From contig ML991859.1 in NCBI GenBank assembly GCA_010094025.1, positions 1-64,000 of the forward strand: a DNA stretch of 64,000 bases. Reading direction: 5' to 3'. The notes under the pieces were generated by a model that made no database searches, was not told the DNA's origin, and saw only the letters and a program-made list of their open reading frames with translations. Shown here in pieces: positions 44,917 to 47,644 of this stretch (the first letter of the stretch is position 1; the number at the start of each line of letters is the position of its first letter). Made by a program: the position numbers and the translations under genes. The stretch is from Viridothelium virens (lineage: Eukaryota > Ascomycota > Dothideomycetes > Trypetheliales > Trypetheliaceae).

Positions 44917-47644
44917 TCAATCACTGTTCACTTCGCGTCCTTCTTCCATTGCTTTCATCATCTCGATCTCCCGGTCGATTTTCCGATAGGCCAGCTTAAA
45001 TTGCGGGAGGAGGAACGGTCTCATGTCGTATCGATTATCTGCAGCACTTTAGCGTCTGTCTTGAGCAAGAGATTGTTCTGTCTCGAGTGCATTGAAAGAA
45101 TACTCATGGAAGCAACATGACACACCATCAGGGTTGCTATTCGGACTGGTCAAATTTTGTACTCCATAATATACCAGCTGGACTTACTAGACTTCACAAT
45201 GGACAGCTGGCGTCAAGGTCGTCATCTTATGACGGTTGATTCCAAAGTAGTAAAAGAAGCGCTGCACTATGATTCAAGTCAGTCCAGATGAAGGAAGAGA
45301 TGTATCAAAGTACCGGGCAGGCTGAGAGCTTCCGAGATCTAAACTTGCCTTTGACCGCAATTTCACTCGGTGTCAGATGGTTCCAAGTGTGCAGAAGTGT
45401 CTGAAACATGGAATACGGTCCTTGACGGTCTACCTTTCTTAGCCTGCCGAAAACGCTAAGCTCTGCATATGTCATCTTCATCTCCTCCTCGTCTGTCTGC
45501 TTGGATTCCAACGGGGTAAGCTCCGCAGTTGGGACGGCATCCAAGAAACCTCGTAGACATGGAAGCTCAAACGCGTATTCCGCCCACCCAATAAATCCAC
45601 GGAGATCCGTTTTGCCTATTGCCGTCAGTAAGTTACAAGCTTTGTTGCATTCTAAGATTTGGGAGATCTAACTGATTGCGCCGATTGGATTCAACTATCA
45701 TAATGTCAATAGACGCGCTTCAAAGCTATTACGGGCTCGACTTACATCTCCAGATGAAGCGTCGTACCTATGAAATTGACATTTAGCATACATCCCACTA
45801 AGTCCTCTTTGACTACATGAGAGCAGGAACTTACTTCGTATAATATCCTCTTAGACACTCGTCGACGTTTGATGAGGTGAGAACAAGCAGGCTTCCTTCT
45901 TTCCCCTGCACCGTCCTCATAGTCGATGCATATAAATATGCATGGACCATTCGCAGTCGCGCCTGCAGATTTTGCAGTGCAAGATTCGATGCAGTAGCAC
46001 CAGAGAACTCTAATTTGAGACCGGTGGTTTTGGTGAAGGTTTCTGTAGCTGCATCGACCACTCTATCCATGTCGAAGTCCTGGTGCAATGATCCTATAGC
46101 ATGGGCTAAGGTTGCGGCTCTATGGCGCGTCTCTTGACTTGATTGTTTCTCCATTCCCATGTATGCAGTGACGAATATCCGACTACAAACTTCCTGGGGT
46201 GTGGTCGGAATCCATTTCGATCCCTCGGGCTCCCCACAAATGCCTCGCAAATCTGAGATCACCCGCCGATTACCTTTTTTGATCGCCTCCACCACGAGTC
46301 GAGCCATTGAGAAGCATATCACAGCTGTAGAGCAGCTATCGATACCCCCCGATAAAGGTAGGAAAAACCCCGACTGTCTGCTTCGCCTGAGGTAGTCATA
46401 TAGCCATACCGCTGGGCCGAGAGCAATCTCTTCCTGTGGTGTATGGTAATGGACTTTGATCGGCTCGGAAGGACGTAACCGTGAGTGGGATCCACTAGGG
46501 AGGGCTAAAGAAAAGTCGACATTGATCCTCATATATCTCTCTTCTTCTGCCATGACCTGGAAACCTCTTGTAGGTGATATACGTGCGGCCCGGACTTTGT
46601 TCAAATCGATTGTTGCAGTGATTACAGACGCTTCACCCAATTCGAATTGAGGCAGAATTCCTAGCACGCCGCCATTCATTGCGATCATTCCGCAACCATC
46701 GTATAACAGACGATCACCGTCACAGCCCTTTTGTTGGTCAACAGAATCCGAAATTTGAATCAGAGAATGGGCCTGACGTACAATCTGATTACTGTATGCA
46801 TACGCACCTCCGCGGACGGTAGCAGAGCGGATTAAGTCGATCCGTCCTGAAAATGTTAGTTCGCTGAAGAAACGGTACCATCAAATGAAGGCGTATTACG
46901 GTCTAATTTCCTTGTAAAGAAAGTGCCGTCAGCGAGATTTGCGTGGGAAGGGAGACAATGGGTTTTACCTTATCTCCCAGTGAGAGCCGGAGCTATTGAG
47001 AACCTTCAGAAGTCAGTGATTACGGGACGAAACAAGCATTGGCTTTGTAGACTCACGAGATCTACCGATTCGATCAGGTATAGATCAGAATGAGGTACTC
47101 TTTCCTGGAAGAGTTCTTCACAGCTTTCCCACCCCAAGATCATGTCGTTGAAGATCATGATTGCATCACCAATACAGACGTTCCTTTTGCCAATGATATC
47201 GAAAATTTCTTCCGGAACGGTGAACTCCTCGGTATGACGGCGCGGCCAAGCTGCAAAATACCGGTTCTCGCGAAACTGACCCTCAGAAGCCAGCGTCATT
47301 TTGGGTCTGATCAATTTAATATCACCGTCGACTATGATACATCTGCAATTGAGAAGCACGCCACGATGTATAACGGGCAGACCAACATCAATGACAATTC
47401 CATAAAGATCTTTGTCTCGAAGAATTTCTGCTACAATTTCCCAGCAATGCATAACAGTATCAAGCTCGAGAAAATGATCCAGAAGACCGTAGCCAGAGAT
47501 GGAGAGTTCTGGAGTTAGCAGTATGCTTGCACCTTTTGCACGAGCTTGATGAATGGCATCTTTGATCCGCTCTAGATTACCTATATAATCTAATGCCCAT
47601 TGATTGAGCTGGCTTGTTGCCACGACAGCAAGATGCCCTGTCAT
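44917..47644 (-). CDS. qns1: Glutamine-dependent NAD+ synthetase, 11 exons with microexons
   Basis: Exons: 47057-47644, 46969-47003, 46900-46910, 46782-46846, 45835-46727, 45746-45767, 45673-45694, 45349-45615, 45188-45266, 45126-45136 and 44917-45038. Together they are 2115 nt, giving 704 residues, the normal family length. Two exons are 11 nt and two are 22 nt; each restores conserved sequence (SSGSHWEIRKLDRRIDLIRS; KYDASSGDLNPIGAISKTD; HCEVYNPDDNRYDMRPF). The intron 45267-45348 starts with GCAAGT, a GC-AG intron. The N-terminal glutaminase is a nitrilase fold with catalytic Glu46, Lys115 and Cys175 (WESCEELF). The C-terminal synthetase has the ATP-binding PLSGGIDSCSTA loop. The enzyme amidates nicotinic acid adenine dinucleotide with glutamine-derived ammonia, the last step of NAD+ synthesis. 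Exon borders are by eye but phase and family agree at every junction. Confidence 0.9.

Follow-up and report, generated by a model that had tools for sequence, protein, structure and literature searches.

Can one conserved enzyme be encoded intact by a fungal gene split among eleven exons, of which four measure just 11 or 22 nt, and how would exons of this size be spliced? The question is raised by a locus on the minus strand (47644-44917) of the window, by which we mean the whole 64,000-nt stretch of Viridothelium virens DNA that was analysed. Here, eleven exons joined into one frame, giving a CDS of 2115 nt with 704 codons plus stop (Table 1). The protein matched the Pfam domains CN_hydrolase (PF00795, E 8.8e-23) and NAD_synthase (PF02540, E 3.5e-25), both above cut-off, and a phmmer comparison with human 6ofb_A (E 1.9e-206) covered residues 3 to 692 at 50% identity. 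Given these two domains and the human match over near full length, the locus is QNS1/NADSYN1, the glutamine-dependent NAD synthetase and final enzyme of NAD synthesis, with its activity being predicted. In the glutaminase domain, E46, K115 and C175 each align pairwise with the same residue in the human protein, and we take these three to be the catalytic Glu-Lys-Cys of a nitrilase-type domain. Besides, SGGIDS at residues 359-364 conforms to the SGGxDS signature of the C-terminal ATP-pyrophosphatase synthetase domain. The fungal protein thus resembles the eukaryotic NAD synthetases, represented by human NADSYN1 (PDB 6ofb), in its two domains (CN hydrolase and NAD synthase), its ~700 residues and its catalytic residues, being 50% identical to the human enzyme; yeast Qns1 belongs to the same group. 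It differs by lacking one residue in exon 4 (TVR-GG) and by a few loop insertions, and the sole notable difference of the fungal QNS1 is its gene structure.

Table 1. Predicted exons and introns of QNS1, listed in the direction of transcription; unless stated otherwise, each row is based on the joined frame and the spliced alignment.
Feature	Position	Strand	Length (nt)	Details
Exon 1	47057..47644	-	588	ATG at 47644; CN hydrolase domain; alignment match begins at 47629
Intron 1	47004..47056	-	53	GTGAGT..CTGAC..AAG; phase 0
Exon 2	46969..47003	-	35	VLNSSGSHWEIR; also in profile alignment
Intron 2	46911..46968	-	58	GTAAAA..CTGAC..AAG; phase 2
Exon 3 (micro-exon)	46900..46910	-	11	GAAATTAGACC; R-K-L-D-R with neighbours
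Intron 3	46847..46899	-	53	GTAATA..CTAAC..CAG; phase 1
Exon 4	46782..46846	-	65	
Intron 4	46728..46781	-	54	GTACGT..TTGAC..AAG; phase 0; no in-frame stop
Exon 5	45835..46727	-	893	Synthetase domain with SGGIDS
Intron 5	45768..45834	-	67	GTAAGT..CTAAA..TAG; phase 2
Exon 6 (micro-exon)	45746..45767	-	22	KYDASSGD with neighbour
Intron 6	45695..45745	-	51	GTAAGT..TTGAC..TAG; phase 0
Exon 7 (micro-exon)	45673..45694	-	22	LNPIGAIS with neighbour
Intron 7	45616..45672	-	57	GTTAGA..CTGAC..TAG; phase 1
Exon 8	45349..45615	-	267	
Intron 8	45267..45348	-	82	GC-AG; donor AAAG followed by GCAAGT..CTGAC..TAG; phase 1
Exon 9	45188..45266	-	79	
Intron 9	45137..45187	-	51	GTAAGT..TTGAC..TAG; phase 2; competing AG ends at 45146
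Exon 10 (micro-exon)	45126..45136	-	11	CAACCCTGATG; Y-N-P-D-D with neighbours
Intron 10	45039..45125	-	87	GTGTGT..CTAAA..CAG; phase 1
Exon 11	44917..45038	-	122	TGA at 44919-44917; alignment match ends at 44953

We use micro-exon for an internal coding exon of ~30 nt or less, and in the predicted model four exons are of this kind, each lying between GT-AG introns. An earlier, sequence-only reading of this DNA had named the gene QNS1, placed its eleven exons in a single frame and seen AG and GT at the flanks of all four micro-exons; its coordinates were reproduced to the base, and with them the 704-codon frame and the flanking dinucleotides. Each micro-exon length is a multiple of 11, which is probably a coincidence. 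Intron 8 belongs to the GC-AG class, rarer than GT-AG, and has the only non-GT donor among the ten introns.

The residues contributed by the micro-exons could be compared with homologues that carry no introns at all. A scan of prokaryote genomes returned 324 stretches; relatives were encoded in 243, and the best 80 were kept. From these we used the first 17 listed (L009-L025), all from Candidatus Poribacteria, intronless and matching nearly the whole QNS1 query. One locus (L022) was left out because translating it in a single frame gave 23 stops. The remaining 16, together with the human protein, formed a reference set of 17. The 16 bacterial homologues are 47.3-51.3% identical to the fungal QNS1 and hence as close to it as human NADSYN1 (49.9%). 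Among viral contigs, 39 stretches fitted a pattern, none was confirmed, and no relative was found. As the sequence-only reading had proposed, the short exons supply the residues expected of the family: those of all four aligned without a gap to 17 of 17 references, and the single gap in their vicinity (TVR-GG) falls within exon 4. Around exon 3, the fungus has RKLDRR, all 16 Poribacteria have RKLDTR and human has RKANTR; across exons 6 and 7, fungal YDASSGDLNPIGAIS stands against YDCSS[AG]DINPIG[GS]IS; and around exon 10, YNPDDNR stands against YSP[DE]DNR.

An independent spliced alignment led to the same exon model. In a purpose-written aligner, codons were scored against a profile of the 17 references (human weighted 0.4, the bacteria jointly 0.6), splice knowledge was confined to a GT or GC donor and an AG acceptor, and each intron was charged a flat cost (1.5 times that for GC). 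At intron penalties of 6, 12 and 20, all ten introns were returned to the base, whereas a penalty of 30 led to the loss of both 11-nt exons (exons 3 and 10) and of intron 4. The match spans 47629 to 44953, and the start and stop codons therefore rest on the frame alone. Likewise, an exon-by-exon protein search of the genome placed five matches in QNS1, yet none of the five on exon 2, 3, 6, 7 or 10. The expectation that aligners tend to skip exons this short was thus borne out, and since both the stringent aligner and the exon-by-exon search missed micro-exons, automatic annotation might report QNS1 as broken or absent where the gene is intact.

Conserved-looking residues in such short pieces might also arise by chance, with the gene either skipping the micro-exons or decaying, and with intron DNA happening to spell family residues. 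We shuffled each span 1000 times with dinucleotides preserved, leaving 6 nt at its start and 4 nt at its end unchanged. The observed alignment score was reached in 7 of 1000 shuffles for exon 3, in 3 for exon 10 and in none for exons 6 and 7 together. The micro-exon matches exceed chance; taken alone, the 11-nt exons remain the weak point on which a chance reading could build, as do the donors beside exon 3 (introns 2 and 3), which are off consensus. Against it stand not only the result for exons 6 and 7 but also the frame, which is broken without the micro-exons, and the intact full frame and catalytic residues of what is the only copy found. We hence regard chance as an extremely improbable explanation.

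Competing exon choices were enumerated as frame-compatible AG...GT/GC exons of 1-60 nt (for the exon 3 span, with the further condition that introns of at least 40 nt be left). The span of exon 3 holds exactly one such candidate, namely the exon read originally; there were seven candidates for exon 10, four for exon 6 when exon 7 was fixed and two for exon 7 when exon 6 was fixed, and the original exon scored highest each time. The best-scoring exon model thus shows a single predicted frame of 704 codons that is collinear with the family.

Skipping any one micro-exon shifts this frame. Premature stops are met at codon 226 when exon 3 is skipped, 531 for exon 6, 583 for exon 7, 546 for exons 6 and 7 together and 660 for exon 10. 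As each of these five skips ends in a premature stop, it is hardly plausible that the micro-exons are optional cassettes in making a functional enzyme. Retention of a single intron leads to a premature stop for nine of the ten introns, the latest being that of intron 10 (codon 689), where only the tail is replaced. Intron 4 (46728-46781, 54 nt) stays open upon retention, which would add 18 residues.

It is nevertheless conceivable that some short exons are alternative or of different extent, exon 10 being 20 nt long in some messages and intron 4 being retained, such that slightly longer enzymes would be made. An AG 9 nt upstream of exon 10, ending at 45146, would give a 20-nt exon (45145-45126) in the same frame with three additional residues, and the stop-free intron 4 would, if retained, give 722 codons. 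Yet both forms add residues absent from the human and the 16 Poribacteria references. For exon 10, the 20-nt form also scores 14 BLOSUM62 units lower than the 11-nt form (66.5 versus 80.5), and its AG ends 4 nt past the adenosine of a branch-like TTGAC; a 3' splice site requires a minimum distance from the branch adenosine, and 4 nt is too close for a usual one. While we consider such alternative forms unlikely, the extent of exon 10 is the ambiguity remaining in the exon model.

The splice signals were judged against the donor and branch-site consensus forms, which served as yardstick for the QNS1 introns. GTRNGT occurs at six of the nine GT donors, compared with 4.35% of 184 GT dinucleotides on the same strand between 44600 and 48000 (P 5e-7), and in five of ten introns CTRAC lies 5-30 nt upstream of the 3' site, compared with 6% of the AGs in the region (P 1.6e-4); of the other five introns, three have TTGAC and two have CTAAA. 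These donor and branch-site features, unused by the aligner, agree with the exon model. The three weakest donors, those of introns 2, 3 and 7 (GTAAAA, GTAATA and GTTAGA), are off the usual consensus. Because two of them flank exon 3, this is the least certain of the micro-exons, although it nonetheless has the only frame-compatible solution in its span.

We also looked for the genome's own intron signals in 264 kb, made up of 20 stretches of the same genome (200 kb) and the window, in which QNS1 was masked. A scan for the strict form (GTRNGT..CTRAC..AG) gave 49 candidates, 35 of them with open flanks, while the reversed sequence gave 94 and 30. Set against five Markov resamples of ~261 kb, the sample had a slight excess of the strict form (49 versus 26-46) and was also richer in the CTRAT form (68 versus 35-55) and in GTAAGT alone (90 versus 61-83); CTGAC alone was rarer (447 versus 480-534), and the looser YTRAC form (GTRNGT..YTRAC..AG) was no commoner in ~261 kb (82 versus 75-88). 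The null result for YTRAC and the excess of CTRAT hint that introns are few in this genome or that its branch site is looser. With the looser form on a par with the resamples, our judgements on donors and branch sites rest on regional base rates and the general consensus rather than on that of the genome itself.

Neither profile nor protein searches found a second QNS1 in the 30.7-Mb assembly, and the whole gene as DNA query had one match there, namely itself, in a search that may pass over words that are common or very short. Another NAD_synthase hit (at C77) lies in a 583-codon frame that looks like a GMP synthase rather than a QNS1 paralogue. The idea that the locus itself is a paralogue or a decayed copy was rejected in view of its full frame, its intact catalytic residues and the lack of a second QNS1 in the assembly. 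As the only QNS1 found, the gene is expected to be needed.

A further reading would treat each pair of introns with its micro-exon as one unit, either nested introns (stwintrons) or spreading introner-like elements. Introner-like elements are near-identical intron copies elsewhere in a genome, and none of the ten introns had a second copy in 269.5 kb (the window plus 205.5 kb of other DNA from the same genome, i.e. the locus L003 and the 20 stretches); the gene-wide DNA search, although it could miss short copies, gave the single match mentioned above. Stwintrons are described as numerous in some filamentous ascomycetes, the Hypoxylaceae (PMC9024468), and intron pairs 11-22 nt apart look superficially similar. 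In a stwintron, the inner intron splits a splice element of the outer one and nothing between them is kept, whereas the pieces between the QNS1 introns encode conserved residues which, judging by the predicted frame broken by their loss, must be kept. This makes either kind of element a barely conceivable account.

How unusual the density of introns is can be gauged from the CCT/HSP60 family of the same genome, for which there were 17 matches at ten places. Omitting one partial match within a 2491-residue frame (C22) left nine genes in 16 pieces, with 7 breaks in 12.9 kb; the number rises to 12 when each of the five stops read through inside pieces is taken to mark a further intron. QNS1 has 4.7 introns per kb and the CCT/HSP60 domains have 0.54-0.93 (P 2.3e-5 and 3.9e-4), i.e. 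roughly five to nine times fewer, the latter figures being rough as introns beyond the domain or lacking a stop are invisible to the count. In this small comparison with CCT/HSP60 genes, QNS1 is an outlier in intron density. Within the window, ORFs of 1284 (XPG), 631 (MFS), 547 (UbiA) and 531 residues (CoA transferase) each contain their Pfam domain in a single frame; RPN2 and an mRNA 5'-triphosphatase are each divided between two.

Taken together, we are highly confident that QNS1 contains four constitutive coding micro-exons whose introns would be recognised singly and spliced in turn. With introns of no more than 51-87 nt throughout, recognition by the spliceosome would fall on each intron rather than on each exon. 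A micro-exon would be too small for complexes on both of its neighbouring introns at once; these would be excised in succession, and the first removal would join the micro-exon to a longer exon. We infer this consecutive removal by analogy with plants, where the two introns flanking a micro-exon are likely removed consecutively (PMC8831610). Messages spliced wrongly would yield no enzyme, as losing a micro-exon puts the sequence out of frame and leads to a premature stop, and would probably be degraded by nonsense-mediated decay. The sequence-only reading had argued that exons this short fall below the size normally recognised by exon definition. This argument loses its force with introns of such length in a fungus: fungi mainly use intron definition, which limits intron length (PMC2614967), and a short exon is thus no obstacle in that respect.

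It had likewise been held that four such exons in one fungal gene are striking. With respect to intron density the claim stands, given the comparison with the CCT/HSP60 genes; as regards tiny exons as such it is weakened, for fungal micro-exons of such sizes are in print (PMC1184071, PMC4986451). The P450 genes of Phanerochaete chrysosporium, a basidiomycete, form a large multigene family. There, exons no longer than 29 bp, and as short as 6 bp, occur in 41 genes, set, as in QNS1, among frequent introns, in that case of 45-55 bp (PMC1184071); QNS1 differs in being the only copy found, and the CCT/HSP60 domains of its genome are poor in introns. The nank genes of Tuber melanosporum, an ascomycete gene family, share many very small exons, even codon-sized ones (as cited in PMC4986451), yet these are described as alternatively spliced, with a diversity of receptors as the outcome, whereas the micro-exons of QNS1 shift the frame when skipped. 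In the filamentous ascomycete Trichoderma virens, Xlr2 has a 20-nt micro-exon that is likewise not divisible by three and was missed by the gene model, and its abstract calls functional micro-exons previously undescribed in filamentous fungi (PMC11121469); there, inclusion is switched by glucose, while the four in QNS1 carry no apparent sign of a switch. Conserved micro-exons of 15 nt or less, often unannotated, are described for plants (PMC8831610) and are alike as very short conserved coding exons, the difference being the host. The relevant lines of a Cryptococcus paper give mapping settings only (PMC3990503). By titles and abstract openings, the literature on QNS1 and introns did not discuss the gene structure of fungal QNS1, and a literature search for mini-exons had no match. 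QNS1 is hence a clean, dense further example of a known gene structure, not a new mechanism.

One might go further and suppose that splicing of the QNS1 micro-exons is rate-limiting or regulated, tying NAD synthesis to the performance of the spliceosome. Four frame-shifting micro-exons would then have been kept in the only QNS1 of a genome with few introns in the genes compared because of this very role, and poor splicing would produce frame-shifted messages and less QNS1. We consider this highly unlikely. Either way, the intronless Poribacteria homologues offer a standard against which QNS1 models from other fungi can be checked, and the gene itself, with four obligatory micro-exons in one conserved enzyme, is a well-defined natural system for studying the splicing of very short exons in fungi.
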